Below, one piece after another: positions 101 to 63,392 of a stretch of 64,000 bases of DNA; position 1 is the stretch's first letter, and each line of letters starts with the position of its first letter. The stretch comes from Zanthoxylum bungeanum (taxonomy: Eukaryota > Streptophyta > Magnoliopsida > Sapindales > Rutaceae), in contig SKCR01036129.1 of assembly GCA_019454045.1 (NCBI GenBank), positions 1-64,000 on the forward strand, given 5' to 3'. Position numbers and translations under genes: made by a program. The notes below the pieces were generated by a model. That model was not told the DNA's origin. It saw only the letters and a program-made list of their open reading frames with translations, and did not search any database.

Positions 101-616
101 CCCTCGATCTTCTTTGAGGATAGATAACCCTTTAATAGATTTCCTTACATGATAGGAATATACCTGTCGGGCGGGGGTAGCCATAATTGGAACTTAATCT
201 TAATGAATTCAGATAACTTGGTTAACATAGGAATATGATTAATCGGGTTACACTGGGTATTTGTATCTGACCATCGAAAGAGGATTTTACATAATTCCGT
301 GTTCCAGGTTAATAAAACAATTTATTACACAACCGTAAGTTAATCACTTTACCTTTAAAAATGATATTGGAAGGATTCACAACCCTCAATAGTTTTAAAA
401 TTGAATTTTCTTAAAAACTACTTTCAAGCAATTTTATTTACTTGTTTTAAATTTAAAATCACCATCCAAATAAACAATCAATCCATTAGATACTCGTAAA
501 ATTTGACTTCATAAATTGATAACAAAAGGTTTTAAGTCCTTGTGGGATCAATACTTTTTATACTATTAGAACGATACGTGCGTTTGCGTTATACGCGTGT
601 GATTTCACACCGGTCA
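101..616 (+). repeat. 5' LTR remnant of Athila element A (last 516 bp)
   Basis: The sequence matches 39428-39943, the final quarter of the 3' LTR of element A, base for base apart from scattered substitutions and small indels. It ends in CGGTCA at 616, six bases before a primer-binding site. The first ~1.5 kb of the LTR (U3, TATA) is missing and replaced by the unrelated LTR end at 1-100, so this 5' LTR has no promoter left. Confidence 0.85.
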
Positions 617-622
617 AGTTTT

Positions 623-640
623 TGGCGCCGTTGCCGGGGA
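623..640 (+). promoter_or_regulatory. Primer-binding site, tRNA-Asp type
   Basis: TGGCGCCGTTGCCGGGGA is complementary to the 3' end of plant tRNA-Asp (CCCCGGCAACGGCGCCA). It sits 6 bp downstream of the LTR end at 616, as expected for minus-strand priming. tRNA-Asp priming is typical of the Athila lineage. The same site occurs in inverse orientation in element C at 63375-63392. Confidence 0.92.
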
Positions 641-12681: not shown

Positions 12682-12689
12682 TATATAAA
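12682..12689 (+). promoter_or_regulatory. Probable TATA box of the D LTR
   Basis: TATATAAA in the context CTTCTCTATATAAACAACCC is conserved in the 3' LTR at 25283-25290. An A- and C-rich probable transcribed leader follows in both copies. Confidence 0.65.
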
Positions 12690-25282: not shown

Positions 25283-25290
25283 TATATAAA
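25283..25290 (+). promoter_or_regulatory. Probable TATA box of the second D LTR
   Basis: TATATAAA stands in the same context as 12682-12689. Confidence 0.65.
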
Positions 25291-26188: not shown

Positions 26189-26714
26189 CATGATGCGATC
26201 GAGAGCATGGGCTTAGTAAGTCGGATTAAAGGTCCCCTATTTGGAGGGGTTAAAACCCTTTACCACGATGTTTTGTCGCGCCGGTTGATGTGTTTTCGGT
26301 TGAATGTAAGAAATGTTCAATTGGGGACAATAAGTTTGATATTATTGTCTTTATTCTTTGTATGCATGATGCGATCGAGTGCATGGGCTTAGTAAGTCGG
26401 ATTAAAGGTCCCCTATTTGGAGGGGTTAAAACCCTTTACCACGATGCTTTGCCGCGCCGGTTGATGTGTGTTCAGTTGAATGTAAGATATGTTCAATCGG
26501 GCATACTAAGTTTGATATTATTGTCTTTATTCTTTGTATGCATGATGCGATCGAGCGCATGGGCTTAGTAAATCGGATTAAAGGTCCCCTATTTGGAGGG
26601 GTTAATACCTTTTACCATGATGCTTTGCCGCGTCGGTTGATTTATATTCAGTTGAATGTAAGATGTGTTCAATCAGGTATACGAAGTTTCATATAATTAT
26701 CTTTATCTTTGTAC
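26189..26714 (+). repeat. Three 174-176-bp tandem units in the D 3' LTR
   Basis: Units start at 26189, 26365 and 26541 with CATGATGCGATCGAG. The extra unit compared with the 5' LTR shows copy-number change after or during insertion. Confidence 0.85.
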
Positions 26715-31320: not shown

Positions 31321-31536
31321 ATGGTATCAAGAGCCTTGATTAAGCATGAAATTAGATTTAGGGTAAAATTTGGGTAAAATTGATTTGAGCATGATTTGAT
31401 GAAATTAATTGATTGAGTATTCTTGAATGATGATAACTTATAGTTATGCATGATCAATGATGATGAAAATTGAATTGGATTAATTTTTCCCCAAATAGTA
31501 GGCTTGGCCGAAAGTTTGAAGTACCCTAAAGTCATG
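31321..31536 (+). repeat. Second 5' internal fragment of copia-1
   Basis: After the 3' LTR the sequence continues with the primer site (31322-31334) and leader, matching 7475-7690 almost exactly, instead of flanking DNA. It stops inside AAAGTCATGGT at the junction with element A. The layout LTR-internal-LTR-internal indicates a tandem product of recombination between LTRs. Confidence 0.88.
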
Positions 31537-32430
31537 GTAAAGCTTTATGTGATTTAGGTGCAAATGTTAATTTAATGCTTTTTTCTATTTACAGGAAACT
31601 ACAAATCGGAGAAGCAATGCATACCTCAGTCTCTCTGCAACTTGCTGATCGAACTCTTCGCATTTCCGAGAGGTGTCGTTGAAGATGTGCTGGTCAAAGT
31701 CGACAAACTCATTCTCCCAGCAGATTTCATTATCCTTGACATGGAAGAAGACAAAGATGTTCCTATCATCCTTGGAAGACCATTCTTGGCTACAGGTCGA
31801 ATGTTATTGATGTGCAAAAAGGAGAACTAACTATGAAAGTGCAGGTCCAAGAAGTTACCTTCAATGTGTTTTCAAGGCCATGAAATCCCGAGTGAGAAAT
31901 GAGGAAGAATGTTTCAGAATTGATGTTGTTGATAGTATCATTCATGATACTGATACAGTTCCCACGGATAAACTTGAAGCTTGCATCACTAACATGACTA
32001 ACAGCGAGCTAGATGCTGAAATTTTGGAATGTCTCAACTATCTTGACAAGCCATTCCGATTCAAATCGACACCACCAGTGGAAAGTCTGGAACTTCCGAA
32101 GAAAGATTGAATCAAGCCCTCAATTAAAGAACCACTGCAGCTGGAACTGAAGCTATTACCGAGTCATCTCAGGTATGCATTTCTTGGAAACTCTTTTGAA
32201 TTACTTGTTATTATTTCTTCTTCACTAACATTGGAGCAGAAAGAAAAGTTGATGAGAGTGTTACGAGAACACAAGAAAGCCATTGGCTGGACTATAGCAG
32301 ACATTCGAGGCATTAGTCCATCATTTTGCATGAACAAGATTCTGATGATTGACGAGTAAAAACCCACAGTGGAGCATCAACAGAGATTAAATCCAATCAT
32401 GAAGAAGGTCGTGAAGAAAGAAATCATCAA
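31537..32430 (+). pseudogene. pol: Athila protease and linker, element A-right
   Basis: AAAGCTTTATGTGATTTAGG begins in the middle of the protease (active site CDLGANVN, with S changed to N compared with 2540), followed by the linker TDKLEACITNM near 31965. It duplicates 2523-3390 at roughly 94 percent and shares its stop codon GAGTAA at about 32356. The N-terminal part of protease is absent from this copy. Confidence 0.88.
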
Positions 32431-33130
32431 ATGGTTGGATGCTCGTATCATCTACCCCATTTCAGATTGTAGTTGGGTGAGTCATATGCAGTGTGTACCA
32501 AAGAAATGAGGAATTACTGTAGTCACAAATGAAAAGAACGAACTGATTCCAACAAGAACGGTGACTGGATGTAGAGTATGCATGGACTACCGGAAGCTGA
32601 ACAAAGCAACAAGGAAAGATCATTTTTCGCTGTCGTTTATTGATCAGATGCTAGAAAGACTGGCAGGATACGAGTTCTATTATTTTTTGGATGGATACTC
32701 GGGGTACAATCAGATTGCCATCGCCCCAGAAGATCAGAAGAAAACTACATTTACATGTCTGCATGGTACTTTGATTTCCGCAGAATGCGATTTGGACAAT
32801 GTAATGCTCCTGCCACATTCCAACGTTGCATGATGGCCATCTTCTCAGACATGCTAGAACAAAGTATGGAGGTTTTTATGGATGACTTCTCTATGTTTGG
32901 AGATTCTTTTGACCATTGCTTGCAAAATCTGGAACATGTGTTACAAGGTGCGAAGATACAGACTTGGTACACAATTGGGAAAAATATCATTTCATGGTAC
33001 ATGAAGGCATTGTTCTTGGACACCGGATCTCACAAAAGGGAATCGAGGTAGACAAAGCAAAGATCGAGATAATTGAAAAACTACCTCCACCCACAACTGT
33101 CAATGGGATTCATAGTTTTCTCGGACGTGC
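32431..33130 (+). pseudogene. pol: Athila reverse transcriptase, element A
   Basis: Motifs in order: CMDYRKLNKATRKDHF near 32580, FYYFLDGYSGYNQIAIAPEDQ near 32676, ATFQRCMMAIFSDMLE near 32815 and the catalytic EVFMDDFSMFGDSF near 32868. The catalytic DD pair is kept. An in-frame TGA (32507-32509), a frameshift near 32770 and another near 32950 break it. The sequence is typical of Athila RT and matches element B (53870-53130). Confidence 0.9.
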
Positions 33131-33600
33131 TAGCTTTTACAGGAGATTTATCAAAGACTTCTCAAATATTACAAAACCTCTTCGCAATCTTCTAGAGAAA
33201 GATGTGCCTTTCAACTTCACCAAAGAATGCCAGGAAGCCTTTGAGATCCTAAAACAGAAGCTGGTCTCTGCACCCATCATAGTAGCACCGGACTGGACCC
33301 TTCCATTTGAGGTGATGTGCGATGCTAGTGATTTTACTGTAGGAGCAGGTTTCGGACAACGTAAAGCAAAGATCTTCCATGCCATTTACTATTCCAGCAG
33401 AAATCTGAATGAAGCTCAACTCAACTACACAACCACTGAAAATGAGTTGCTTGCAGTTGTGTTTATTTTTGATAAATTCTGCTCTTATCTGCTAGGTCCC
33501 AAAGTGGTGGTCTACACATATCATTCAGCAATCAAGTATTTGATCGCGAAGAAAGATTCCAAATCCAGATTGATTCGTTGGATACTTCTCCTGTAATAAT
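33131..33600 (+). pseudogene. pol: Athila RNase H, element A
   Basis: [20 protein letters not shown] near 33312, [16 protein letters not shown] near 33433 and [13 protein letters not shown] near 33505 give the RNase H D-E-D set. The third aspartate (YTDHS in element B) has become tyrosine here, so this domain would be inactive even in an open frame. A stop follows at 33595. Confidence 0.85.
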
Positions 33601-35041
33601 TTGACGTGGAGATCAGAGATAGGAAAGAGACAGAAAACCAAGTGGTAGATCATTTATCGAGGCTTGAGAATGGAGATACAACTGGCAAAGAACTAACAAT
33701 CAAAGAAACTTTTCCAGATGAACAGCTGTTTGCTATGAAACAGCAAGAAGTCCCTTAGTATGCTGACTATGTAAACTACATAGTGTCGGGAAAATGGCCG
33801 TTGGAATGGACAACTCAGCAAAGGAAGAAATTCTTCAAAGAAGTCAAGCACTATGTCTGGGATGAACCGTACCTGTTCAAACAATGTGCTGATCAATTAC
33901 TGAGACTGTGTGTTCCACAGGAAGAGGTTAACAGTATTCTGCAACATTGTCATTCATTACCATATGGCGGACACTTCAGCGGGAATAAAACTGCAGCCAA
34001 AGTCCTACAATCAGGTTTGTTTTGGCCCACTCTATTTAAATATACTTATCTGTTTGCTCTTCAATGTGACAGGTGCCAGAGAACTGGAAATATTTCAAGA
34101 AGAAATGAAGGACCGTTGCAAAACATTCTGGAAGTGGAGATATTTGATGTATGAGGGATTGATTTTATGGGACATTTTGTTCCATCATTTGAAACTTGTA
34201 CATACTGGTTGCAGTAGACTACGTCTCCAAATGGGTTGAAGCAATTGCACTGCCATCCAATGATTCAAAAGTGGTGATCAAGTTCCTGAAAAAAAATATT
34301 TGCACTCGCTTCAGAACACCTCGGGCAATTATCAGCGATGGTGGCTCATATTTCTGCAACAGATACTTCGATACACTCCTATCCAAATACGGAGTTACTC
34401 ATAAGGTTGCCACAGCCTATCATCCACAGTCAAACGGGTAAGTTAAAGTTTTAAACAGGGAGATCAAAAGAATCTTAGAGAGAACCGTTGGATCAACAAG
34501 GAATGACTGGTCTGAAAATCTGGATGACGCATTATGGGCCTACCGAACAGCTTACAAGACACCTATTGGTATGTCCCCATATCAAATTGTGTTCGAGAAA
34601 GCATGCCATCTGCCAGTTGAGCTTGAACACAAGCCATACTGGGCACTAAAGTAGGTGAATCTTGATCCACAAGCTGCAGGAGAGAAAAGACTTCACCAAC
34701 TCAATGAGTTGGAGGAATTTCGCCTACAGGCTTATGGGAATGCCAAACTGTACAAAGAGAAGACCAAGAAATGGCATGACCGAAAAATAGTGCGCAAACA
34801 ATTGGAACCAGGGCAGTAAGTGTTGTTGTACGATTCAAGGTTGAAACTTTTTCCTGGAAAGCTGAAATCAAAATGGTCAAGTCCATTTGCGATTACACAG
34901 GTGTTACCCTACAGAGTTATTGAGATATACAATCCCAAGTCGAGCAACACATTCAAGGTTAACAGCCAGCGTGTCAAGTAATACTGGGGAGAATCATTTG
35001 AGCGACAAAAAGAAAGTGTCACACTTTCATATCCAGCCTAA
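33601..35041 (+). pseudogene. pol: Athila integrase, element A
   Basis: The zinc region (H-X-H...CDRCQ near 33950-34080) is followed by the catalytic core with [15 protein letters not shown] near 34201, [15 protein letters not shown] near 34328 and [10 protein letters not shown] near 34412, then [19 protein letters not shown] near 34540. A TAA right after the NG block (34440-34442) and other stops break it. The C-terminal domain with KSKWSSPFAITQVLP near 34865 ends in TAA at 35039-35041. No chromodomain is visible. Confidence 0.87.
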
Positions 35042-35182
35042 CGTTAGGGAAATCATGTCTAGCTGACGACATTAAACTTAGCGCTAGCTGAGAGGCAACC
35101 CAAGCAATTTGTGTATATATTGTGATGTTGTGTGTTTTAATTTTTATGTGTTTAGTTTTTGCAAGTTAAGACGCATTTCAGG

Positions 35183-35730
35183 ATGGAAGAAGCTCTCGCA
35201 AATCTTCACAAGCAATTTCCTTTTCTCCCTCAAAATTCTCTGATAAAGTCTACAAAGCTCGCATGGAACAAATGAGACTTCTGACGATCCATGGTATTCC
35301 TAATGACATTCATTGGGTAATCGAAGCACGAGTCTGATTAGCAGGTGAGTATTCTGATTCTTGTAATTCTTATTTGCCTGGTTTTGGAAGAAGCACCTAT
35401 GCAAAGAAACGTAGAGCTAAGCAAATGGGTGTTTGTTACAAATGTGCACGCTGTAATTGTAATACTCATTGTCGTTCTTTAGGAATGGTATCTGATAATC
35501 GCGAAGATAAAATTAAATTCATTAGGGATGGCTTGAGTAAGGAGTCTTTAGATGATATATCTTCGACTCTTGAGACGTATGTCAGTGGATATGTTCATAT
35601 AGCCATTCGCAAAATACATACACAATTCCGAAAAGAAAGACAACAGTTAAGTCTTGGGAATCTGACTCTAAAATACCATGTTTGCCAATTTATAAGAAAA
35701 TTGGATGGGAAGCTTGTCCCTGACGCATAG
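35183..35730 (+). pseudogene. ORF-X, uncharacterised accessory ORF of element A, frameshifted at the N-terminus
   Basis: The start is inferred at ATG 35183 (MEEALANLHKQFP), conserved in B (51098) and C (60468). Two small lesions break the first third; the remainder is open from 35374 to 35730. The central part has the cysteine pattern C-X2-C near GVCYKCARC and further Cys near CNTHC, then SLGMVSDNREDKIKFIRDG and a conserved end RKLDGKLVPDA. It is strongly basic in the middle. No membrane segment or signal peptide is seen. I do not recognise the family. Its place between pol and LOG in all three elements shows it is part of the transposon. A putative acceptor TTTCAG precedes the start codon. 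Confidence 0.7.
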
Positions 35731-35900: not shown

Positions 35901-35913
35901 TCACCCTTTTCAG
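35901..35913 (+). promoter_or_regulatory. Possible splice acceptor upstream of LOG
   Basis: TCACCCTTTTCAG, a pyrimidine-rich stretch ending in CAG, lies 72 bp before the LOG start. The same block (CACCC.TTTTCAGGT) precedes LOG in B (about 50350-50366, - strand) and C (about 59730-59745, - strand). It could serve a spliced subgenomic RNA, but no donor has been tied to it. Confidence 0.4.
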
Positions 35914-35984
35914 GTTCTATAAATTCAACTCATCATTGCACTATTGAAGGCATCCAGAGCTGAAAAAAAAAGAAACACAAAAAT

Positions 35985-36638
35985 ATGGAAGCCACTTCAA
36001 GAAGACGAGTGGTAAATATTTGTGTGTTTTGTGGTACCAGTGTTGTTGTTAAACCAGAATGCATAGTAGCAGCACAGGAATTGGGTCGAGTCTTAGCTGA
36101 AATAAATATGCACCTAGTATATGGAGGAGGCAATCTTGGACTAAAGGGGATCGTTTCAAAGGCTGTATATGATGGAGGGAGTCAAGTCTTGGGAATCATC
36201 CCAAAACCGTTGGTGGAAGCGAATCTTGTTGGATCATCAAACAACGAGGAATTAATCATGCTAGGTATGTCTGAACGACTGATAAAAATGATTAACCGTG
36301 TTGATGCTTTTATTGCTTTGCCAGGAGGCTTGGGCACGATGGAGGAAATTTTTACAGTACTATCTTGGGCAAACTTGAACATACACCAGAAACCGCTTGG
36401 ACTGTACAATGTTGATGGATTTTATGATTTTCTTTGTGTGTTTCTTGATGATGCCCGGAGAAATGGGTTCGTGTCAAAGCTTGTAAAAGAACTCCTCTTT
36501 ACTGCCAGAACTGCCTCAGATTTAATTAACCAAATCTTAGCATTTGAACCTCAAATTGACCCCATTTTTTCCAAGATAAATTGGTCCGATGATGATCATG
36601 GTAAGAGGCGTCGAATAAATCTGGATCTTAACCTTTAA
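35985..36638 (+). CDS. LOG-like: LOG-type cytokinin riboside 5'-monophosphate phosphoribohydrolase carried by Athila element A
   Basis: This is an uninterrupted 217-residue frame (ATG in the context AAATATGGAAG). It has the LOG/TIGR00730 Rossmann-fold layout: N-terminal ICVFCG (12-17), glycine loop VYGGGNLGLKG (45-55), IIPKPL, MSERL with the usual catalytic-site Arg at 98, PGGLGTMEE (113-121) and NIHQKPLGLYNVDGFYD. LOG enzymes release ribose 5-phosphate from cytokinin nucleotides to give active free-base cytokinin. The Lys that normally follows the conserved Arg is Leu here, so activity is not certain. The C-terminus adds acidic SDDD, KRRR (207-210) and LDLNL (213-217). Plant LOG genes normally have several introns and this copy has none, which fits capture from spliced RNA. 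It lies between integrase and the 3' LTR, the usual env position in Athila. Confidence 0.9.
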   Translation: MEATSRRRVVNICVFCGTSVVVKPECIVAAQELGRVLAEINMHLVYGGGNLGLKGIVSKAVYDGGSQVLGIIPKPLVEANLVGSSNNEELIMLGMSERLIKMINRVDAFIALPGGLGTMEEIFTVLSWANLNIHQKPLGLYNVDGFYDFLCVFLDDARRNGFVSKLVKELLFTARTASDLINQILAFEPQIDPIFSKINWSDDDHGKRRRINLDLNL

Positions 36639-37946: not shown

Positions 37947-38540
37947 TGATGAGCGGAAAATATATCAATATTTACCGTCCCTTTTACTTAATATTTTATT
38001 TAGTTTCTCGGGTTTGATGAATGTTTTGATATGTTTTAGTTTATTTTGCAGATAAAATAATATTGGGACACAATGAAATCATTTAGGACGAAAATGGGTC
38101 AAATAAAGGCAAAATATTGGACTTGACATATTAATTTTGGAGATTGAAAACTTGAAAGGGCGTTTTAACGAAGTGCAGTTTTGGAAATTCCAATTTTGCG
38201 CATCTGTCGTATTTTAGGCATAACGTTTTACTCCAATATCGGATTGAGCTGATTCAAGTTCAAAATTAAAGAAGACTTAATGATCTACAATTTTGAAGAA
38301 CAAAATAATTTCGAATTCGGATGATTTCATGACCGAAATTGATGAAACATCCGTAAGTGTGTTATGTGTAATTATTAAAGTCATTTTCAAAGCAAATAAA
38401 TAAATAAAAATTAAAAATTGTCAAACTCCCACCAAACATGATAGCAATTAGTGAAACAATTATTGGAGCAATTAATAATGGATTTGGTTGAGCAATTAGT
38501 GGAGCAATTAATAATGGATTTGGTGGATGATTTGATGGAG

Positions 38541-38560
38541 GCAAAATTTTGCCTATAAAT
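38541..38560 (+). promoter_or_regulatory. TATA box with adjacent 12-bp palindrome, LTR of A
   Basis: GCAAAATTTTGC, a perfect palindrome, runs directly into CTATAAAT. The same arrangement is present in LTR C (57065-57084, - strand). In LTR B the TATA box is kept but the palindrome is replaced by CG-rich sequence. Confidence 0.65.
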
Positions 38561-38891
38561 ACCAAGTCATTTCATTTGTAAATTCATACTTTCTTCTAAG
38601 GAATTCCTTAAGAATACTAAGAAGATTGTATCTTGTTTGTTTATTTACAACTTTCAGTAATTAATTTCCGCTTTCGCATTTTCTTTTCTTTACTTTTCAG
38701 TCTTTACTTTCAGCAATTTACTTTTTACGCACATTACTTTCCTTCTTTACTTTTCAGTTTTTTTTTTACTTTTTACGCAATGAGGAGGTAACTCCCCTTT
38801 GCCGGGGAAAAAGGTAAATTTTTTATTATTGCTATTTAGATTATTCTCCCCTAATTATAATATAATTAACTATTTAAAATCTGACTTAACG

Positions 38892-38975
38892 AGGATACCG
38901 CCATATTGGTCGGTTGGTAATTAATTATTAATTTGACTTAATCAGGATACCGCCTATATCGCTGGTTGGTAATTA
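38892..38975 (+). repeat. Two GGATACCGCC...GGTTGGTAATTA repeats in LTR A
   Basis: Two units about 53 bp apart read GGATACCGCCATATTGGTCGGTTGGTAATTA and a close variant. Longer arrays of the same unit stand in LTR B (47125-47345) and LTR C (56536-56743). Confidence 0.75.
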
Positions 38976-39079
38976 TCACGCAAAGTTAATATATTATATT
39001 AAGGGAGATATCTAAAATAGTAGTAATAAAAGTGGATCCTCTAACCCCCAGCATTTCTTTTATATGTACTTTTACTATT

Positions 39080-39170
39080 TTACTTTTCAGCAATTTACTT
39101 TTCAGCAATTTACTTTTCAGCAATTTACTTTCAGCAATTTACTTTTCAGCAATTTACTTTTCAGCAATTT
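39080..39170 (+). repeat. 15-bp minisatellite (TTACTTTTCAGCAAT)n in LTR A
   Basis: About six head-to-tail copies are present, one with a single T missing. Isolated copies of the same unit are scattered near 38690-38770 and in the other LTRs. Confidence 0.85.
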
Positions 39171-39943
39171 TCTTGATGTCTTTTATTTTATTTAAGTTTT
39201 TACCAGCCCTAGTTATGTGTTGTAACTAAGTTAGTTATCTGGGGTTGTGATGAAGTCCAATATCACCGGTTTATAAGGGGTTAAATTACGGTTTGGGTAA
39301 TATAAAAGTTTATTTATTGAGCCTTAGTCTTAATGCTTTTTATTAACTGGAAATTAATAAAATTGAACTGGTAAACTTAAAATGAACTTGGAAAAGAGAT
39401 TTTAGGTTAAATACCTTAGACTCAATATCCCACGATCTTCTTTGAGGATATATAACCCTTTAATAGATTTCCATATAGGATAGGAATATACCTGTCGGGC
39501 GGGGTAGCCATAATTGGAACTTAATCTTAATGAATTCATATAACTTGGTTAACATAGGATTATGATTAATCGGTTACACTGGGTATTTGTATCTGACCAT
39601 CGGAAGAGGCTTTTACATAATTCCGTATTCCAGGTTAATAAACCAATTTATTACACAACCGTAGGATAACCACTTCATCTTTAAAAATGATATTGGAAGG
39701 ATTCACAACCCTGGATAGTTTAAAAATTGAATTTTCTTAAAAACTACTTTCAAGCAATTTTATTTACTTGTTTTAAATTTAAAATCACCATCCAAATAAT
39801 CAATCAATCCATTAGATACTCGTAAAATTTGACTTCATAAATTGATAACAAAAGGTTTTAAGTCCTCGTGGGATCGATACATTTTATACTACTTGAACGA
39901 TACGTGCGCCTTGCGTTATACGCGTGTGATTTCGCACCTGTCA

Positions 39944-46217: not shown

Positions 46218-47124
46218 ATAAGTGACCGGTGCGAAATCACACGCGTATAATGCGAGCGCACATATCGTTCAAGTATTATAAAAGTATCGATCCCACGATG
46301 ACTTAATACCTAGGCTATTAATTTTTATGAGGCCAAATGATTACAAGTATCTAACATGTTGATTGTTTGATTGGGTGGTGACTTTAAACATAAAAACAAG
46401 TAAATAAAATGGTGCGAAAGTTGGTTGAGAAATTTAATATTAAGAAACTATCCAGGGTTGTGATTTCTTCCAATATCTTTTTAAATATGAAGTGGTTATT
46501 TCATGTTTGTGTAATATATTGGTTTACTAACCTGGAACACAAAATTCTGCAAAAGCCTCTGTCGATGGTCGGATGCAAATACTCAGTGTAACCCAATTAA
46601 ATCATATGTCTATGTTAATCAAATTACCTAGATTCATTAAAACCAAGTTCCAATTGTGGTTACCCCGCCCGAAAGGTATAGTCTATCCTAAAGGAAATCT
46701 ATTAAAGGGTTATCTATCCTCAAAGAAGATCGTGGGCTATTAACTTTAGGGCTAAAACCTAAAATTCATTTGTCAAGTTTATTTTAAGTTTACCAGATCA
46801 ATCTTATAATGTCCAGTTAACAAGAAGTATTAAGCTTAAGACTTAATAAGTAAACCTTTATATTACCCAAACTATAAAATAACCCCTTATAAAATAACCA
46901 GTGATATTGGAATTCATCACAACTCTAGATAACTAACTTAGTTACGACAAATAATTAGGGCTAGTAACAACTTAAAAATAAAAGACATAAAGTAAAATGC
47001 TGAAAAGTAAAATGCTGGAAAATAAATAAAGAAAAATACAATAAAAGAAAATGCTAGAGCTAGAGGATCTACTTTTATCACTACTATTTTAGATATCTCT
47101 CTTAATATAATATATTAACTTGTG

Positions 47125-47345
47125 TGATATTACCAACCAGCCATATAGGCGGTAACCTGATTAAGTCAAATTAAGTCCGATCGACCATAAAGGCGGTATC
47201 ATTATTTGTCCATACACCAGCCATATAGGTGGTAATTACCAACCGACCAACCAGGCGGTATCCATGCTTAGTCAGGTTAAAACCAGTTTATAATTAATTA
47301 CCAACCGACCAATAAAGTGGTATCATTGTTAAGTCAAGTTTTAAA
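47125..47345 (-). repeat. Array of ACCAACCGACCA...GGCGGTA repeats in LTR B
   Basis: About five imperfect units with GACC(A)NNNNNGGCGGTA are spaced 40-60 bp apart, at 47130, 47180, 47215, 47240 and 47300 approximately. The position downstream of the TATA box places them in the transcribed part of the LTR. Confidence 0.7.
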
Positions 47346-47599
47346 TAGTTTATATATTATAATTAAGGGAGATTAATCTAAATAGCAGTAATAAAAGTTT
47401 TACCTTTCACCCTAGCAGGGGGAGTTGCCTCTCATATCTGAATAGTAAAAACTGAAAGAGTAAAGAAAGTAAATTACTATTACAAAAAGTAAATAAAATT
47501 AATTACAAAACTGAAATTAAAACAAACTAGATACAAACTCCTTATTATTATCAGAGAATTCAAAGAGGAAGGTACATCTGAAACTGAAATTTCGAGCTC

Positions 47600-47609
47600 T
47601 ATTTATAGG
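47600..47609 (-). promoter_or_regulatory. TATA box of LTR B
   Basis: The minus strand reads GCCTATAAATAGAGCTC. The same CCTATAAATA core is found in LTRs A and C. Confidence 0.7.
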
Positions 47610-47665
47610 CGTCTATGGTGGTCTCGCGTCTCGACGCGTGGATTGCTCTTGCGTCGCGACGCGAT

Positions 47666-48000
47666 GACGTGTCACATTCTGATTGGCTTCTTTGATTCCC
47701 TTATCTTCTGACGTGGCATTTTGGATGATTAACTCAATAATTATACTAACGTGGTGGTGATGTGGCGACACGTGGCGATGTTGATTGTCGGCACCGTGTG
47801 ATTGCGACACGTGTCACGTGATGATTGACTGATGATGACGTGGCACACTGACTTGGCACGTGGCTGATGTGGACGCCTATGTGGCTGACACATGGACAAC
47901 ACGTGGATGACACATGGCGATGGTGATTGTCGGCACCATAGGATGATGACACGTGGCACAACACACGTTAGCATGATCGGCTGTGATGTTGACACGTGGC
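47666..48000 (-). promoter_or_regulatory. Cluster of about ten ACGTG (G-box/ABRE) cores upstream of the LTR B TATA box
   Basis: ACGTG-containing cores are at 47667, 47711, 47769, 47808, 47815, 47838, 47857, 47898, 47950 and 47993. Several read CACGTGGC. ACGTGGC is the ABA-response element core bound by bZIP factors, and CACGTG is the G-box. They lie 60-400 bp upstream of the TATA box in LTR orientation. LTRs A and C have no such array. Regulation by ABA or light signals is inferred from motif content only. Confidence 0.65.
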
Positions 48001-48333
48001 AGACGTATGTTAGCAGATTCAGCACACGTTAGCATCTGACACATTTTAGTAAAATACCTCTGATTGGTCCATGTGTCCTGGCGCACATTAGCAGAGCTAC
48101 GGCGCACGTTAGCTGTCGCGAGGCGGGCTGTGCGTCACAACGCGCCAAATTACCATTTTGGCATTTTTTGTCCTTTTTCATTGTTTTGGCCTCGAATCAC
48201 CTCCGGAGAGTCCTGAAACTTTATTTATCTACAAAATAACATAAAACACATCAAAATATTCACAAAGCTCAAGAAACTATACAAAATATTTGGTTAAATG
48301 AGTGGGAAATAGTGATACATTTACCACTCATCA

Positions 48334-49633: not shown

Positions 49634-50287
49634 TTAAAGGTTAAGATACAGATTTATTCGACGCTTCTTACCACGATCATCATCAGACCATTTTATCTTG
49701 GAAATGATATGGTCAATTTGTGGTTCATAGGCTAAGATTTGGTTAATTAAATCATGGGCAATTCTGGCAGTGAAGATGAGTTCTTTTAAAGGTTTTGACA
49801 CGAACCCACTTCTCCAGGCATCATCAAGAAATACACAAAAAAAATCATAAAATCCATCTGCGTTGAACAATCCAATTGGTTTCTGGTGTATGTTCAAGTT
49901 GGCCCAAGATAGCACTGTAAAAATCTCCTCCAACGTACCCAAACCACTTGGCAAAGCAATAAAAACATCAGCATGGTTAATCATTTCCACCAGTCATTCA
50001 GACATACCTGGCACGATTAGTTCTTCTCTGTTTGATGATCCTATAAGATCTGCCTCTTCCAAGGGTTTTGGGATGATTCCCAGAACTTGACTGCCTCCAT
50101 CCTGTACGGCCTTTAAAACGATCCCCATTAGTCCAAAACTACCTCCGCCATATACTAGGTGCATATTCTTCTCAGCTATGACTCGTCCCAATTCCTGTGC
50201 TGCTGCTATGTATTGTGGCTTAGTACCAACACTAGTACCACAAAAGACACAGAGATTTACAACTCGTCTTCTTGAAGTAGCTTCCAT
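49634..50287 (-). pseudogene. LOG-like: LOG-type gene of Athila element B with one nonsense codon
   Basis: The frame is the same length as the intact copy in A (218 codons with stop). It is interrupted only by TGA where A has CGA and C has CGT-type Arg codon, at the conserved Arg of MSERL (around 49991-49993). This is a C-to-T change at a CpG. A second harmful change turns the PGG signature into PSGLGTLEE. The glycine loop reads VYGGGSFGLMG, as in plant LOG proteins. The C-terminus ends KKRRINLYLNL, still LxLxL. Position and flanks are as in element A. Confidence 0.88.
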
Positions 50288-52480: not shown

Positions 52481-53130
52481 CCATTTTCCCGATAATATGT
52501 AGTTGACATAGTCAACATACCAAGGAGCATCATGCTGTTTCATGGAAAACAACTGTTCATTTGGAAAAGTTTCTTTGGTTGTCAGTTCTTTGCCAGCTAT
52601 TTCTCCATTCTCAAGCTTCGATAAATGATCTGCCACTTGGTTTTCTGTCCCTTTCCTGTCTCGAATCTCCACGTCAAATTCTTACAGTAGAAGTATCCAA
52701 CAGATCAATCTGGGTTTGGCATCTTTCTTTGTGATTAGATATTTGATTGTTGAATGATCTGTGTAGACCACCACTTTGGGACCCAATAGATAGGATCAGA
52801 ATTTATCAAAAGCAAACACAACTGCGAGCAACTCATTTTCAATGGTTGTGTAGTTGAGTTGAGCTTCATTTAGAGTTCTACTGGGGTAATAAATGGTGTG
52901 GAAAACTTTTGCTTTGTGTTGTCCCAAAACTGCACCTACAGCAAAATCACTAGCATCGCACATCACCTCAAATGGAAGGGTCCAGTCTGGTGCTACAATG
53001 ATAGGAGCAGAAACCAGATTATGTTTTAGGATCTCAAAAGCTTCATGGCATTCTTTGGTGAATTTGAAAGGCACATCCTTCCCCAAAAGATTGCACAGAG
53101 GTTTAGCAATCTTTGAGAAGTCTTTGATAA
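52481..53130 (-). pseudogene. pol: Athila RNase H and connection, element B
   Basis: [37 protein letters not shown] and [13 protein letters not shown] keep the D-E-D set, including the third aspartate lost in element A. A stop at 52793-52795 and another near 52682 break the frame. Downstream, RDRKGTENQVADHLSKLE is the usual Athila RNase H-integrase connection. Confidence 0.85.
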
Positions 53131-54037
53131 ATCTCCTGTAAAAACCTGCATGTCTGAGAAAGCTCCGAATCCCTTTGACTGATGTTGGCAGAGGTAATTT
53201 TTCAATTGTTTCAATCTTTGCTTTGTCTACCTCGATTCCCTTTTGTGAGATCTGGTGTCCCAGAACAATGCATTCCTGCACCATGAAGTGGCATTTCTCC
53301 CAGTTGAGTACCAGGTTGGTATCTTCGCATCTTTGTAACACATGTTCCAGATTTTGCAAGCAGTGGTCAAAAGAGTCTCCAAACAGAGAGAAGTCATCCA
53401 TGAAATCCTCCATACTCTATTCCAGCAAGTCTGAGAAAATGGCCATCATGCAACGTTGGAATGTGGCAGGAGAATTACATAGTCCAAATGGCATCCTGCG
53501 GAATGCAAAAGTACCATACAGACATGTAAAATTGGTCTTCTCCTGATCTTCTGGGGCGATGGCAATCTGATTGTACCCTGAGTATCCGTCCAGAAAATAA
53601 TAGAACTCATGTCCCGCTAGTCTGTCCAACATCTTATCAATGAATGGCATCGGAAAATGATCCTTCCTTGTTTCTTTGTTCAGCTTCCGGTAGTCCATCC
53701 ATACTTTCCATCCAGTCACGATTCTTGTTGGAATCGGCTCGTTCTTTTCATTTGTGACTACAGTTATTCCTCCTTTCTTCAGTACATACTGCATATGACT
53801 CACCCAAGTGCTGTCTGAGATGGGGTAACTGATACCAGCATCCAACCATTTGATGATTTCTTTCTTCACGACCTCCTACATGATTGGATTTAGTCTTCGT
53901 TGATGCTCCACTGTGGGTTTGTACTCATCGTTTATCAGAATCTTGTGCATGTAAAATGATGGACTAATGCCTCGAATGTCTGCTATAGTCCAGCCAATGC
54001 CTTTCTTGTGTTCTTGTAACACTCTCAGCAACTTTTC
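53131..54037 (-). pseudogene. pol: Athila reverse transcriptase, element B
   Basis: Two large open pieces (53869-53417 and from 53413 on) are split by a single TAG. Motifs: KKEIIKWLDAGISYPISDS, WMDYRKLNKETRKDHFPMPF, FYYFLDGYSGYNQIAIAPEDQ, FRRMPFGLCNSPATFQRCMM and the catalytic FMDDFSLFGDSF. This is the best-preserved RT in the window. Confidence 0.9.
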
Positions 54038-55634: not shown

Positions 55635-56535
55635 TGACCGGCGTAAACACACACGTATAACGCAAGCGCACGTATCGTTCAAGTAGTATAAAAATATCGA
55701 TCCCACGAGGACTTAATATCTAATCTATTAATTTTATGAGGTCAAATGATTACTAGTATCTAACAGGTTGTTTGATTGATTTGAAATGGTGACGATTCTA
55801 AATTTAAAAACAAGTAAATAACATTGTTCGAAAGTAGATTTTAAAAATTTAATATTAAAAACTATCTAGGGTTGTGATTTCTTCCAATATCATTTTAAAG
55901 ATGAAGTGGTTATCTTAAAGTTGTTAACATATTGATTTATTAACCTGGAACACTAAATTATGTGTAAGCCTCTGTCGATGGTCAGACACAAATACCCAGT
56001 TTAACCCAATTGAACCATATGTCTATGTCAACCAAATTATCTGGATTCATTAAGTTTAAGTTCCAATTATGGCTACCCCCGCCCGACAGGTATATTCCTA
56101 TCCTGTAAGGAAATCTATTAAAGGGTTATCTATCCTCAAGGAAGATCGTGGGCTATTGAGTCTAAGGCTGAAACCTAAAATCTCTATGTCTAGTTCATTT
56201 TAGATTTACCAGATCAATTTTTTAATGGCCAATTAATGAAAAAGCATTAAGATTAAGACTCAATAAATAAATCTTTATATTACCCAAACTATAATCTAAC
56301 CCTTATAAAACGGTGATATTGGATTTCATCACAACCCCAGATAACTAATTTAGTTACAACACATAACTAGGGCTAGTAAAAACTTGAAAATAAAAGACAT
56401 AAAGTAAAAATGCGGTAAAGTAAATACTGAAAAGTAAATTACAATAAAATAAAATGCTAAGGTAAAAGGAATTACTTTTACTACTACTAATTTAGATATC
56501 TCCCATAATATAATATATAAACTTGTGATAACATT

Positions 56536-56743
56536 ACCAACCAGCCATATAGGCGGTAACCTGATTAAGTCAAATAAAGTCCAACTGGCCATTAAGGCGG
56601 TAAAAAAGATTTCCATGAACCTGCCATATAGGCGGTAAGAAAGTTTAATTACCAACCGACCAATCTGGCGGTATCCTTGATTAGTCAGGTTAAAACCAGA
56701 TTAAAATGAATTACCAACCGACCAATATAGCGGTATCCTTTTT
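56536..56743 (-). repeat. Array of GGCGGTA repeats in LTR C
   Basis: About five units of ACCAACCGACCA(A/T)...GGCGGTA type are present, homologous to the arrays in LTR A (2 units) and LTR B (about 5 units). Confidence 0.72.
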
Positions 56744-57064
56744 AAGTCAATATTTTAAATAGTGAATATATTATATTAAGGGAGATTAATCTAAATAGCA
56801 ATAGTAAAAGAATTACCTTTCACCCTAGCTGGGGAAGTTACCTCCTCATTACTGAAAAGTAAAAACTGAAAAATTAAAGAAAGAAAAGTACTGTGCGTAA
56901 AAGTAAATTGCGGAAAGTAAAAACTGAAAAGTAAAGAAAAGAAAGTGCGAAACTGAAAATTAATTACTGAAAACTAAAAATAAACAAACTAGATACAATC
57001 TTCTTATTTATTCATTAAGAATTTCAAAGAAGAAAGTATGAATTTTACAAATGAAATGGCTTGG

Positions 57065-57084
57065 TATTTATAGGCAAAATTTTG
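57065..57084 (-). promoter_or_regulatory. TATA box with palindrome, LTR C
   Basis: The minus strand reads GGCAAAATTTTGCCTATAAATACC, identical to LTR A over palindrome and TATA box. Confidence 0.68.
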
Positions 57085-57691
57085 CCACCATCAAATCATC
57101 CATCAAATTCTCCACCAAATCCATTATTAATTTCTCCACTAATTACTCCACCAAATCCATAATTGCTCCACTAATTGCTTATCTTGTTTGGTGTTGATTT
57201 GATAATTTTTATTAATTATTAATAATTAATATTTTGCTTTGAAAATGATTGATAATGACTTTTAATAATTACACTCCACACACTTCTGGATGGTTCATCA
57301 ATTCGGTCATGAAATCATCAGAATTCGAAAATATTTTCTCTTTCAAAGTTGTAGAACTTTGAGTCTTCTTAATCTGGCACTTGAATCAGCTCAATCCGAT
57401 ATCTGAGTAAAAAGTTATGCCCAAATTACGACAGATGCACAAAACTGGAATTTCCAAAACTGCACTTCGTCAAAACGCCCTTTCAAGTTTCCAATCTCCA
57501 AAATTAAAATATCAAGTCCAATAATTGCCATTATTTGACCCATATTTCATCCTAAATGATTTCATTGAGACCCGATATTATTTTATCTGCAAAATAAACT
57601 AAAACACATCAAAAAGTTCATCAAACCCGAGAAACTAAACAAAATATTAAGTTAAAGGGGCGGTAAATATTGATATATTTTCCGCTCATCA

Positions 57692-59014: not shown

Positions 59015-59666
59015 TTAAAGGTTAAGATCCAGATTAATCCGACGCCTCTTACCACGATCGTCCTCGGACCAATTTATCTTTGAAAGGATAGGGTCAACTT
59101 GTGGTTCATAGGCTATGAGTTGGTCTATTAGATCCGGAGCAGTTCTGGCAGTAAAGAGGAGTTCTTTTAAAGGTTTTGACACGAACCCATTTCTCCGAGC
59201 ATCATCAAGAAACACACAAAGAAAATCATAAAATCCATCAACATTGAGCAATCCAAGCGGTTTCTGGTGTATGTTCAGGTTCGCCCAAGATAGTACTATA
59301 AAAATTTCCTCCAATGTGCCCAAGCCACCTGGCAAAGCAATAAAAGCATCAGCACGGTTAATCATTTCTACCAGTCGTTCAGACATACCTGGCACGATCA
59401 GTTCCTCTCCGTTTGATGATCCAATAAGATTTGCCTCTGCCAAGGGTTTTGGGATGATTCCCAAAACATGACTGCCTCCTTCCTGTACGGCCTTTGAAAC
59501 GATCCCCATAAGTCCAAGATTGCCTCCGCCATATATTAAGTGCATATTCCTTGCAGCTAAGACTCGACCCAATTCCTGTGCTGCTTCTATGTATTGTGGC
59601 TTAGTACCAACACTTACCGCAAAACACACAGATGTTTTCAACTCGTCTTCTTGAAGTGGCTTCCAT
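59015..59666 (-). pseudogene. LOG-like: LOG-type gene of Athila element C, frameshifted near the N-terminus
   Basis: The ancestral start is ATG 59666 (MEATSRRR-type). A 2-bp deletion near 59617 (GGTA--AGTGTT against GGTACCAGTGTT in A) shifts the frame after residue 17. From there to 59015 the reading frame is open and complete, with IYGGGNLGLMG, IIPKPLAEANLIGSS, MSERL, PGGLGTLEE and the C-terminus KRRRINLDLNL. No ATG opens the longer frame (it would need TTG at 59641), so this copy is probably not a full enzyme unless the deletion is a sequencing error. It is about 87 percent identical to the copy in A at protein level. Confidence 0.85.
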
Positions 59667-59925
59667 TTTTTTTATTTCTTTCTCAACTCGGGATGCCTTC
59701 AAAAGTGCAATGACGGGCTGAATTTATAGTACCTGAAAAGGGTGAGTAAAAATAGCACAAGTATCTTCCAGAGGACGATTAGTAGCGAATAGTAAAATAG
59801 ATCGTGATAGTCAAAAGGTCTGGATCCTGTCGGAGAAAAATAAAAATCAACAAAACAAATCACAATTATTAAGAAAAGACAAAGAGATATAATATTTACA
59901 AGAAAAGTAACGGCTTGATTGACGT

Positions 59926-60468
59926 CTATGCGTCAGGGACAAGCTTCCCATCCAATTTTCTTATAAATTGGCAAACAGGGTCTTTTTGAGTCAGATTCCA
60001 GACTTAACTGTTGTCTTTCTTTTTGGAATTGTGTATGTAATTGCGAATGGCAATGTGAACATATCCACTGGATGCGTCTCAAGAGTTAAAGATATATCAT
60101 CTAAAGACTCCTTACTCAAGCCATCCCTAATGAAGTTAATTTTGTCTTCGCGATTATCAGACACCATTCCTAAAGAACGACAACGAGTGTTGCAATTAAT
60201 CGTGCACATTTAAAACAAACACCCATTTGCTTAGCTCTTCGTTTCTTTGCATAGGTGCTTCTTCCAAAACCAGGCAGATGTGAAATAAAAGAGTCAGAAG
60301 ACTCACCTGCCAATCGGACTCGTGCTTCAATTACCCAACGAATATCATTAGGAACACCTGAATTGTCAGTAACCTCATCCGTTCCAAGCGAGCTTTGTAA
60401 ACTTTCATCAGAGATTTTTGAGGGAGAGAAGGAAATTGCTTGTGAAGATTTGCGAGAGCTTCTTCCAT
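59926..60468 (-). pseudogene. ORF-X of Athila element C
   Basis: The start is inferred at ATG 60468 (MEEALANLHKQFPSLPQ) and the end at TAG 59926-59928 after the conserved LVPDA. Single-base lesions near 60357, 60210 and 60000 interrupt it. Conserved parts are VRLAGESSDSFISHLPGFG, AKQMGVCFKCAR, CRSLGMVSDNREDKINFIRD and RKLDGKLVPDA. Both Cys of the C-X2-C pair are kept. No known family is recognised. Confidence 0.68.
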
Positions 60469-60605: not shown

Positions 60606-61943
60606 TTAAGCTGGATCTGAAAGTGTAACACTTTCTTTTTGTCGCTCAAATGATTCTCCCCAGTAGTGCTTGACACGCTTGTTTTTAACCTTGAAAGTTT
60701 TGTTAGCGTCAGGATCATGTATCTCAACGGCTCTATTTGGTAAAACTTTGGTGATCACAAATGGACCTGACCACCGTGATTTTGGCTTCCATGGGAAGAA
60801 TTTCACCCTTGATTTGTTTAACAGTACCTTCTGCCCTGGTTCCAGTTGTATGCGCACTAACTTCTCATCATGTCTTTTCTTGCCCTTTTCTTTGTACAAT
60901 TTGGCATCCTCAAAAGGCTGATTGTGAAATTCCTCCAATTCGTTGAGCTGGTGGAACTTTTTCTCTTCTGTTGCTTGTAGTGCAAGAATTGGCTCTTTCA
61001 GTACAAAAGATGCTTTATCTTTAGGCTCCACAGGCAATTGACATGTTTTAAGTTTGTCAGTAGAACTTTGTCTTTCATCAGAGTTCTGAATGGTACTGTG
61101 TATCACATCGAGTTTGAAACATTCCTCCTTCTTTTCATCATCTGGGAAATTCATGGCCTTGAAAACATTGAATGTTACTTCTTGGTCCTGTACCCTCATG
61201 GTTAATTCTCCTTTTTGTACATCAATAATGGTTCGACCTGTAGCCAAGAATGGTCTCCCAAGGATGATTGGCACGTCTGCGTCTTCCTCCATATCAAGGA
61301 CAATAAAATCTGCTGGGAAAATGAATTTGTCAACCTTGACCAGCACATCCTCAACTACGCCTCTTGGAAATACGAGCGTTCTATCAGCAAGTTGCAGTGA
61401 GACTGATGTTGGCATTGTTTCTCCAATCTGTAATTTCCTGAAAATAGAAAAAGGCATCAAGTTAACACTCGCACCTAAATCACACAAAGCCTTACCAAAG
61501 TTATGTTCTCCTATGACGCAAGGAACAGTGAAACTGCCAGGATCTTTCAACTTCGGGGGAAGTTTCCTCTGAATGATGGCACTGCATTCTTCTGTTAATG
61601 CTACTGTCTCGTAATCTCCCAATCTCCGTTTTCGTGAAAGAATATCTTTCATGAATTTGGCATAGGTGGGCATTTGTTCCAACGCTTCTGCAAATGGAAT
61701 GTTGATATGCAGCTTTTTGAAGATCTCCAGGAACCGAGAAAACTGCTTGTCCAATTTGTTCTTCTGAAGACGTTGAGGAAAAGGTGGAGGTGGAGTGATC
61801 TGTTCTTTTTCCTTTGCTTCTTTTTCCTCCATCTGTTGCTTTGTTTCTTTTGGAACTTCCTCAGCAGTTGTTTTGGCTCCAACATCTTTGTTGATTTCAG
61901 TACCGCTTTTTAACATGATGGCATGACATTGCTCCTTCCCCAT
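60606..61943 (-). CDS. Protease fused in frame to the integrase C-terminal tail, element C (RT, RNase H and integrase core deleted)
   Basis: This 445-codon open frame has three parts. First is the gag-protease linker (KSGTEINKDVG, KLDKQFSRFLEIFKKLHINIPF). Next is an intact Athila aspartic protease (CDLGASVNLMPFSIFRKLQIG, then [14 protein letters not shown] and [15 protein letters not shown]). Finally, after TDKLKTC, comes the integrase tail with [32 protein letters not shown] (GPY/F-type module) and the normal pol end YWGESFERQKESVTLSDPA. Everything between, about 2.6 kb in element A, is missing without breaking the frame. The ATG at 61943 is internal: ancestrally this is one gag-pol frame with 61910-63274, joined across a 1-bp deletion near 62020. 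A protein made from this frame would need a frameshift or internal initiation. Confidence 0.8.
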   Translation of the reverse strand: MGKEQCHAIMLKSGTEINKDVGAKTTAEEVPKETKQQMEEKEAKEKEQITPPPPFPQRLQKNKLDKQFSRFLEIFKKLHINIPFAEALEQMPTYAKFMKDILSRKRRLGDYETVALTEECSAIIQRKLPPKLKDPGSFTVPCVIGEHNFGKALCDLGASVNLMPFSIFRKLQIGETMPTSVSLQLADRTLVFPRGVVEDVLVKVDKFIFPADFIVLDMEEDADVPIILGRPFLATGRTIIDVQKGELTMRVQDQEVTFNVFKAMNFPDDEKKEECFKLDVIHSTIQNSDERQSSTDKLKTCQLPVEPKDKASFVLKEPILALQATEEKKFHQLNELEEFHNQPFEDAKLYKEKGKKRHDEKLVRIQLEPGQKVLLNKSRVKFFPWKPKSRWSGPFVITKVLPNRAVEIHDPDANKTFKVKNKRVKHYWGESFERQKESVTLSDPA

Positions 61944-63274
61944 GTTCCTTGGATTTGGCTCTGTGTTGCTAGGAAGGGTACCTGGCGGTCTGTAACTCTG
62001 AGCATTGGCCAGTTGTCCATTTGATTCTCTAGTGCTTTGATATAGAGGCTGAATGGCTTTGAAATATAGTCATATCTTCTTGCTGCTTGAGAGTCGTGTT
62101 TTGCTTCCATCTTTTTCAAGTAGGTCAACACTTCTGTTATTCCTGATTCATTTGCCTGCTCCTGGCCTTTGTTCTGTTGCTGGAATTCAGGTGGATAGTT
62201 CTGCTGTTGGCCTGAATTGTTGCTCCATGATAAATTAGGATGATTCCTCCACCCTGGGTTGTAGGTGTTGGAATATGGATTGTTCCCTTGTCTGTTGAAA
62301 TTGTTGACATAATTCACCGTCTCTTCATGTTGGTTTGGTTCTGGTGCTCCTCCATATGGTGAACTTGTGGATCCAGTGATGTTCACAACTTGCGTGCTAA
62401 GTGTTTCTAGACATTTGCATATCTGATCCAGCCTGGTATTCACTGCTGTGTTTGCTCCAACTTCATAAATTCCTGCAATTCTTTGGATCATGCTCTTTTC
62501 TGTTGGCCACAAGGAATTGTTGTTGGCCATTTCTTCTTCGATTAGGTCCCAGGCTTGATCTTCTCCTTTTGCCATCAAGGCTCCTCCAGCAGCAGCATCG
62601 ATTGTGGTTCTCATTATTCCAGAAAGTCCATTGTAGAAGGTCTGAACTTGTAGCCACTTTGGAATCTCATGGTGAGGACATTTCCGGAGTAAATCTTTGT
62701 ACCTTTCCCAAGCTTCGCAGAGGGATTCTGAATCTTGTTGTACAAAGGATGTGATGTCATTCCTCAATTTTCCGGTTCTGGCTGGTGGAAAGTACTTTGC
62801 AAGAAATTTGGTGGCTAAAGTGTTCCAAGTTGTGATAGAACCTGCTGGTAGTGAATGTAGCCAAGCTTTAGCTCTGTCCTTCAGGGAATATGGAAAAACT
62901 CGCAGTCTCATTGCTTCTTCTGATGCTCTGTTGTAGTTAAAAGTGCCGCAAACTTCCAGGAAGTTGCTGATGTGGGAATTAGGATCTTCAGTTGCATTCC
63001 CCCCGAACTGAACTGACTGCTGAATCATCTGAATGCATGTTTTGATGTCACACGCATTTGCTGGTAAGGGAGGAAGTACAATACAGGAAATGAGTCTGTC
63101 AACCACCGGAATGGTTCTGTCTCGAATGGGAATTGGTGGTGCAACGTTCAAAGGTTCAGGTTCCATGTTGACTAAAGCTTCTTGGCCTTCTCGCCTTTCC
63201 CTTCTCAACTGTCTGATGGTTCTTTCAATTTCTGGGTCAAGCGGTCGGAGTTCAAAGCTTCTGGTTCGTCTCAT
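61910..63274 (-). CDS. gag: Athila Gag, element C, nearly complete
   Basis: ATG 63274 begins MRRTRSFELRPLDPEIERT, as in element A. The frame is open for 454 codons. Athila gag blocks are all present: SCIVLPPLPANACDIKTC, GNATEDPNSHISNFLEVC, LKDRAKAWLHSLPAGSITTW, FLAKYFPPARTGKLRNDI, SLCEAWERYKDLLRKCPHHE and DAAAGGALM, then SNTYNPGWRNHPNLSW. A 1-bp deletion after ALENQ near 62020 (against element A) diverts the last ~37 codons, so the frame closes at 61910 while the ancestral frame continues into protease. No CCHC knuckle is seen, as is usual for Athila. It would form particles in the cytoplasm. Confidence 0.85.
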   Translation of the reverse strand: MRRTRSFELRPLDPEIERTIRQLRRERREGQEALVNMEPEPLNVAPPIPIRDRTIPVVDRLISCIVLPPLPANACDIKTCIQMIQQSVQFGGNATEDPNSHISNFLEVCGTFNYNRASEEAMRLRVFPYSLKDRAKAWLHSLPAGSITTWNTLATKFLAKYFPPARTGKLRNDITSFVQQDSESLCEAWERYKDLLRKCPHHEIPKWLQVQTFYNGLSGIMRTTIDAAAGGALMAKGEDQAWDLIEEEMANNNSLWPTEKSMIQRIAGIYEVGANTAVNTRLDQICKCLETLSTQVVNITGSTSSPYGGAPEPNQHEETVNYVNNFNRQGNNPYSNTYNPGWRNHPNLSWSNNSGQQQNYPPEFQQQNKGQEQANESGITEVLTYLKKMEAKHDSQAARRYDYISKPFSLYIKALENQMDNWPMLRVTDRQVPFLATQSQIQGTWGRSNVMPSC

Positions 63275-63374
63275 GTTTTCTGAGAACCTGAAACACAAGA
63301 AAACAAACAATAAGTAAAAAGAAATTAGATACAAGTAACGTATCTAACCCCTAAACTAATAGTAAATAAATAAG

Positions 63375-63392
63375 TCCCCGGCAACGGCGCCA
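63375..63392 (-). promoter_or_regulatory. Primer-binding site of element C (tRNA-Asp type)
   Basis: The minus strand reads TGGCGCCGTTGCCGGGGA, 6 bp after the LTR end at 63399, the same as element A. Confidence 0.92.

Follow-up and report, generated by a model that had tools for sequence, protein, structure and literature searches.

A LONELY GUY homologue with a changed binding pocket, next to a carlavirus-type nucleic-acid-binding reading frame, in a Ty3/gypsy element of Zanthoxylum bungeanum

Some Athila elements have further reading frames between pol and the 3' LTR, be they env-like genes, ORF1 or others; the extra proteins of sunflower Athila and Tekay have predicted nuclear signals, and silencing modulation has been proposed for Tekay (PMC6317226, PMC2410132, PMC11728184, in the available parts of these papers). 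The function of such extra ORFs in plant retrotransposons has been called rather speculative (PMC6317226, available part). The closest described system is a YgdH domain, linked in that paper to LONELY GUY (LOG), in Ty3/gypsy consensuses of Citrus sinensis and C. clementina, and also in Populus trichocarpa Ty3/gypsy elements when the copy-number filter is off; Steinbauerova 2011 is cited there for an earlier report (PMC9289625, available part). These elements have the same LOG-type extra domain as the locus described here, and poplar proteins are also among the matches of its LOG; in contrast, the accessible text of that paper reports the domain alone and is silent on the pocket, the tail, selection, gene order and a partner ORF. 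The original prediction held that no plant retrotransposon with this cargo had been described, and that paper overturns it, LOG cargo being already known, from the same accessible text, as a domain in plant Ty3/gypsy elements. No other report bearing on LOG or lysine-decarboxylase-type cargo in retrotransposons was recognised among the literature matches listed, and in a word search of the available part of a 2026 gene-capture review (PMC13317346) the terms cytokinin, YgdH and Athila did not occur. As far as the search reached, what is new is the pocket change, the tail, the nucleic-acid-binding-protein-like (NABP-like) partner, a relative without LOG (L002) and the selection values.

The locus lies in a stretch of 64,000 nucleotides from Zanthoxylum bungeanum (the window), which holds three element copies, A, B and C. 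The ORF at 35985-36638 is a LOG homologue; in the Ty3/gypsy element that holds it, it follows pol and precedes the 3' LTR:

35985..36638, + strand: LOG-derived ORF of copy A, 217 aa, frame intact; R98 and E121 kept, S96, L99 and T124 replacing pocket H, K and E
36600..36638, + strand: C-terminal tail and stop of the copy A LOG, GKRRRINLDLNL, a basic stretch plus LxLxL, predicted disordered

Assignment to the LOG family, as first proposed, is upheld by profile matches to Pfam PF03641 (4.6e-33) and TIGR00730 (2e-43), by the match to the solved Arabidopsis At2g37210 (LOG3; 1e-51), and by the fold; the AlphaFold model has a pLDDT of 84.7 (below 50 in the last 14 residues), and its top fold matches are PDB 2a33 and 1ydh (Arabidopsis LOG3 and LOG8), followed by bacterial type-I LOGs. 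The protein scores 106.4 bits against a cut-off of 300 for the NCBIfam equivalog NF058542, a weak test, the resource being built for bacteria and archaea. The signature is PGGLGTMEE, of the form PGGxGTxxE, together with R98 and E121, and the frame is open without an intron from 35985 to 36638; the earlier description of an intronless LOG carrying this motif is accurate. The further step, by which the intronless state pointed to capture of a spliced RNA, is weak evidence, because an element passing through RNA can shed introns after capture.

Plant LOG1/3/4 and LOG8 (At2g37210, At5g11950) share the fold, PGGxGTxxE and the catalytic Arg and Glu with the window LOG; unlike them, the window protein has lost the pocket His, Lys and Glu, bears a basic and LxLxL tail, and is encoded by an element. 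In the C. glutamicum LOG (CgLOG; PMC4979012, available part) the proposed catalytic residues are Arg99 and Glu122, adenine is held by Met96, Lys100 and Glu121, and the proposed prenyl site is formed by Met96, His97, Lys100, Glu125 and Trp129; according to the authors the prenyl-site residues are identical in AtLOG3, OsLOG and CpLOG. The window LOG aligns with LOG3 without gaps across the pocket and the catalytic sites; catalytic Arg98 and Glu121 are present, M95 and W128 are kept, and Ser96, Leu99 and Thr124 stand where working LOGs have His, Lys and Glu. Owing to these three replacements the specificity of the window LOG for cytokinin nucleotides is, judged by its sequence, doubtful, and the proposal of a hormone-activating enzyme is not supported, even with the catalytic pair still in place. 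Pocket residues by themselves are no proof of specificity, since LOGs with the same motif residues can differ in activity (PMC11593424, available part).

The same pattern extends to relatives of the window protein. An element-type set of 93 proteins of 205-235 aa was drawn from the window protein and the best 120 of its 1365 matches, the remaining 28 of the 121 being left out of the residue counts; the 93 rows are non-independent, with many poplar-type copies, and most of the database relatives are classed as element-borne from sequence and abundance, the DNA setting having been seen for the window copies. The host set is the best 120 of 7997 proteins scored, with the names LOG1, LOG3, LOG4 and LOG8 and none named LOG5/7/9. 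The catalytic Arg is present in 86/93 element-type proteins (Gln or Leu in the other 7/93), the equivalent of Glu122 in 91/93 and both in 85/93, and the strict motif PGGxGTxEE occurs in 80/93 as against 113/120 of this best-listed host set. The pocket Lys is kept in 8/93, the Glu125 equivalent in 8/93, His in 17/93 and Trp in 91/93; all four pocket residues are found together in 8/93, versus 120/120 best-listed host LOGs. As read from these residues, the pattern is one of a changed binding site and a kept catalytic core rather than of decay. We lean slightly towards the view that the captured LOG has been kept as a nucleus-directed, nucleotide-processing accessory protein whose substrate is not one of the standard cytokinin ribotides, alongside the NABP-like protein; its location, substrate and benefit are what we infer.

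A different outcome would be that the LOG encoded by the element still activates cytokinin, so that cells in which the element is active have more free cytokinin and divide more. The PGGLGTMEE motif, the catalytic Arg and Glu, a fold matching AtLOG3, and purifying selection between the copies are all consistent with this, and the full pocket of 8/93 relatives suggests that some of them may still activate cytokinin; such a role is possible above all for the relatives with a kept pocket. The window protein, however, has all three of His, Lys and Glu replaced, and across the set 85/93 lack the Lys, 85/93 the Glu and 76/93 the His, residues that are kept in 120/120 best-listed host LOGs; in CgLOG, changing AMP-binding and catalytic residues to Ala (Lys100 is listed among them; S19A is the exception) nearly abolished activity (PMC4979012, available part). 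We consider a working cytokinin-activating enzyme unlikely, and the sequences suggest that the element LOG has probably ceased to activate cytokinin in the standard way.

The accessory-protein reading also draws on the C-terminal tail. A K/R cluster is present in the last 16 residues of 92/93 element-type proteins versus 7/120 host proteins, and a strict LxLxL lies within the C-terminal 30 residues of 75/93 versus 0/120; the host proteins are again the best 120 of 7997, a sample without LOG5/7/9, one of which could share the tail or pocket. The basic stretch and the LxLxL are taken here to be NLS-like and EAR-like, respectively. With such a tail the LOG fold might instead serve as a non-enzymatic scaffold, which binds a nucleotide while the LxLxL recruits a co-repressor and alters host or element transcription; a basic and LxLxL tail in most element-type rows, predicted to be disordered, and the loss of the adenine-contact Lys in 85/93 agree with this. 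The catalytic Arg (86/93) and Glu (91/93) are among the best-kept positions, which is hard to explain without catalysis, and a pure scaffold seems improbable.

Phylogenetic analysis separates 33 element-type from 24 host LOG rows (split support 97/97), and 33 from 23 (100/100) when the pocket and tail columns and the bacterial row are removed. With a single bacterial row as root, support for the element clade is 94/90. In the 56-row tree, built without the pocket and tail columns, a branch of 28 pocket-changed rows has a support of only 96/70, and the pocket-retaining rows fall outside that branch; on this tree one change accounts for the loss of Lys, one for that of Glu and four for that of His. 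Element LOGs are placed outside LOG1/3/4 and LOG8 (97/97; one long bacterial outgroup row, no LOG5/7/9), and with such an outgroup and such sampling the outside placement is no evidence of age. Nesting the element LOGs with LOG1/3/4 gives a p-AU of 0.03 and with LOG8 a p-AU of 0.175; from these sequences an origin inside LOG1/3/4 is disfavoured, and one inside LOG8 would be compatible with its p-AU. The suggested tree of element-borne and host LOGs yielded a split between the two, and for the donor that it was meant to reveal it gives these two values. Among the relatives, a predicted protein of 359 aa from Xanthoceras sorbifolium (P0009) contains two LOG domain stretches.

The three copies in the window are laid out as follows:

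105..616, + strand: upstream piece of an LTR, the end part of a 5' LTR, 94% to 39429-39943
623..640, + strand: primer-binding-site sequence, TGGCGCCGTTGCCGGGGA
31536..35060, + strand: pol remains of copy A with RNase H, integrase zinc-binding and integrase core; holds stops
32916-33596, + strand: RNase H ORF of copy A, part of the pol remains
33783-34154, + strand: integrase zinc-binding ORF of copy A
35907-35926, 50344-50363 (- strand) and 59720-59739 (- strand): TTTTCAGGT tract just 5' of LOG in the three copies, resembled in L002
36707..36742, + strand: internal polypurine-like tract 3' of LOG, in all three copies; L002 has a similar tract
37947..39943, + strand: copy A 3' LTR, reading TGATGAGC...TGTCA, with GGTTTGGGGGTG before it
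46223..48333, - strand: 3' LTR of copy B
49634..50287, - strand: LOG copy B, full length, with one internal stop and PGG changed to PSG
52796..53869, - strand: RT (RVT_1) and RNase H of copy B
55635..57691, - strand: 3' LTR of copy C
59015..59666, - strand: LOG of copy C, open apart from a 2-nt frameshift near its start
61910..63334, - strand: gag (Retrotrans_gag, PF03732) of copy C
63375..63392, - strand: primer-binding-site sequence of copy C, same letters as in copy A (TGGCGCCGTTGCCGGGGA)

The LOG genes of copies B and C align with that of copy A across the whole gene, and copy A alone among the three has an intact LOG frame. That all three hold LOG in the same place between pol and the 3' LTR with the same flanks, as originally noted, is confirmed by the TTTTCAGGT tract on its 5' side, the polypurine-like tract on its 3' side and the start of the 3' LTR, which are common to the copies; these flanks sit inside long alignments, over which the copies are ~14-17% divergent. 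The TTTTCAGGT tract is, from its letters and position, a possible candidate for the splice acceptor of a LOG mRNA. The integrase core of copy A was assigned by similarity to L002; read in the frame of L002, the stretch from RNase H to integrase (RH-INT) holds 6 stops in copy A and 9 in copy B, and copy C is without a stretch corresponding to A 31944-34598. The 5' LTR of copy C is visible from 63398 to the end of the window, and where its LTRs can be compared, over 610 columns of their visible parts, they are 97.7% identical. Copy C looks nested in the gag of copy B, because the gag homology of B stops at 55634, at the LTR end of C (55634/55635). Duplication of one locus is rejected on the LTRs, the apparent nesting and the divergence between copies, and by these sequence features A, B and C look like separate insertions spread by transposition, the alternative that the original prediction had asked to see distinguished. 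As the LTRs of C are 97.7% alike and the copies ~14-17% apart, LOG moved with the element before the copies split.

Comparison of the copies gives LOG dN/dS values of 0.312 (A-B), 0.290 (A-C) and 0.281 (B-C) at a dS of about 0.3, with Fisher p of 6e-7, 4e-7 and 2e-7, respectively; gapped and stop codons are left out of the counts. The corresponding values are 0.224 (A-B) for RH-INT, and 0.377 (A-B), 0.233 (A-C) and 0.278 (B-C) for the NABP-like region. By these ratios LOG is under purifying selection about as strict as that on the element's other genes; neutral decay after insertion raises all dN/dS values between copies. The intact frame of copy A is not taken as a sign of function, as one intact copy could be luck. 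The LOG could also be passenger DNA, acquired once and carried without benefit, a view that fits two broken copies out of three and the finding of no LOG in L002; it is already weakened by dN/dS values of 0.28-0.31 at a dS of about 0.3, most proteins of a wide set have retained the core motif and the tail, and we give it very little credence.

A second extra gene lies between pol and LOG; its ORF is longest in copy B:

35183..35730, + strand: NABP-like ORF (carlavirus-type nucleic-acid-binding) of copy A, broken by one in-frame stop and one gapped codon
50549..50977, - strand: NABP-like ORF of copy B, 142 aa open part; homology reaches 51101
59905..60468, - strand: NABP-like region of copy C, frame-broken

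The original prediction was silent on this neighbouring viral-type ORF. The copy B ORF matches Pfam Carla_C4 (PF01623) at 1.2e-5, with 25.7 bits against a cut-off of 20.9, and one Cys of its finger is changed to Phe. There are 203 relatives in all; many of the best 120 have 182 aa, and these 120 include proteins of Xanthoceras, Populus and Rhamnella. Most of 25 aligned rows have a Cys finger together with a basic, KKRRAK-like stretch, and among 39 scanned relatives from the best 120 of 203, PF05515 (Viral_NABP) is detected in 34/39 and PF01623 (Carla_C4) in 33/39 at an E of 1e-3, some of these matches lying below the family cut-off. The structure model of the NABP-like protein is poor (pLDDT 64), and a PDB sequence search with it gave no match. 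The cysteine-rich proteins of carlaviruses, allexiviruses and mandariviruses likewise combine PF05515 and PF01623 with a basic stretch beside a Cys finger; unlike these, the NABP-like ORF is encoded by a retrotransposon, and many of its relatives have 182 aa. Viral members of this kind are reported to be silencing suppressors, and one to be a transcription factor that causes hyperplasia (PMC12172455, available part). Scans of viral contigs gave L001 as the sole match, at 30%, and among the literature matches listed, supplements being outside their scope, no report of a viral-type NABP in retrotransposons was met, which is not proof of absence. An exchange of genes between RNA viruses and Athila-type elements, in either direction, is possible.

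L002 (DAIEQH010000041.1, 1-3330) is a 3.3 kb contig found in scanning prokaryote assemblies and filed under a Candidatus Nomurabacteria MAG; it is probably a plant retrotransposon fragment contaminating the bacterial MAG. Its order is RH-INT, an intact NABP-like ORF (1799-2347) and a polypurine-like tract. When L002 was searched with one host and five element-type LOGs, the sole match covered 14 residues at an E of 0.23; the contig ends before any LTR, so that a LOG further downstream is possible and none stands at the place where the window has it. The NABP-like ORF therefore occurs without LOG beside it, and at this position some members have either acquired LOG or lost it.

The domain order RT-RH-INT and LTRs of the form TG...CA are as in Ty3/gypsy elements. 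Presence of a second RNase H (aRH) marks Tat (PMC6317226, available part). By Pfam, none matched in copy A, where ~320 nt lie between RNase H and the integrase zinc-binding domain, and none was recognised on reading the open frame of L002, without a Pfam scan, from the RNase H end to integrase; a Tat/Ogre placement is rejected on this lack of a second RNase H in copy A or L002. The same primer-binding site, TGGCGCCGTTGCCGGGGA, occurs at both 5' ends seen, 623-640 (+) and 63375-63392 (-). We take it to be of the tRNA-Asp type used by Athila. The element differs from the Athila elements with extra genes described above in that its extra genes are NABP-like and LOG-like, with no PF03078 match among the 20 window ORFs scanned. 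Membership in Athila, as initially claimed, is likely on the domain order and the lack of a second RNase H; it falls short of proven.

Under the accessory-protein reading, an Athila-type Ty3/gypsy family harbours two accessory genes, placed after pol and before the 3' LTR: one encodes a nucleic-acid-binding protein of the carlavirus type, with a Cys finger, and the other, present in some members, a LOG-derived Rossmann enzyme. After capture, the LOG would first have gained a basic, nuclear-targeting tail and next the LxLxL; the pocket Lys and Glu would then have been lost, each in seemingly one step. The present protein would be directed to the nucleus and cleave or bind a nucleotide outside the standard cytokinin ribotides, and together with the nucleic-acid-binding protein it may help the element replicate or evade silencing. 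Counting against this are the broken copies B and C, the stops in the pol of copy A, the 8/93 relatives with a full pocket and the 7/93 with a replaced catalytic Arg. The locus offers two extra ORFs with recognisable chemistry, an apparent order from tail to pocket and a function that is directly testable; some LOG-annotated plant proteins, such as Populus 'LOGL10' (P0044), may be element-type and not make cytokinin. A bolder version, distinctly unlikely in our estimation, is a two-gene, virus-like module for host manipulation, in which a silencing suppressor of the carlavirus kind would be joined by a nucleus-directed LOG-fold hydrolase that, no longer tuned to cytokinin ribotides, destroys or soaks up another nucleotide signal, for example in immunity or chromatin; if true, a plant retrotransposon would be equipped with an anti-defence cassette, and one branch of the LOGs would have acquired a new base specificity.

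Further repeats lie in the window. Inside the span of copy A, a repeat pair of ~5 kb (10297-15415 and 22935-28171) is ~95% alike, and the DNA that separates its members matches gag, RT and RNase H; the repeats are probably the LTRs of an element that is Tat/Ogre-like by LTR size. A piece of the copy A pol occurs twice, at 2522-3668 and 31535-32681, 29 kb apart and 94.7% alike, and copy A might comprise two adjacent copies or be a single rearranged one. At the start of the window (1-616), LTR-end sequences stand in tandem (about 1-104 and 105-616) at a truncated LTR junction.
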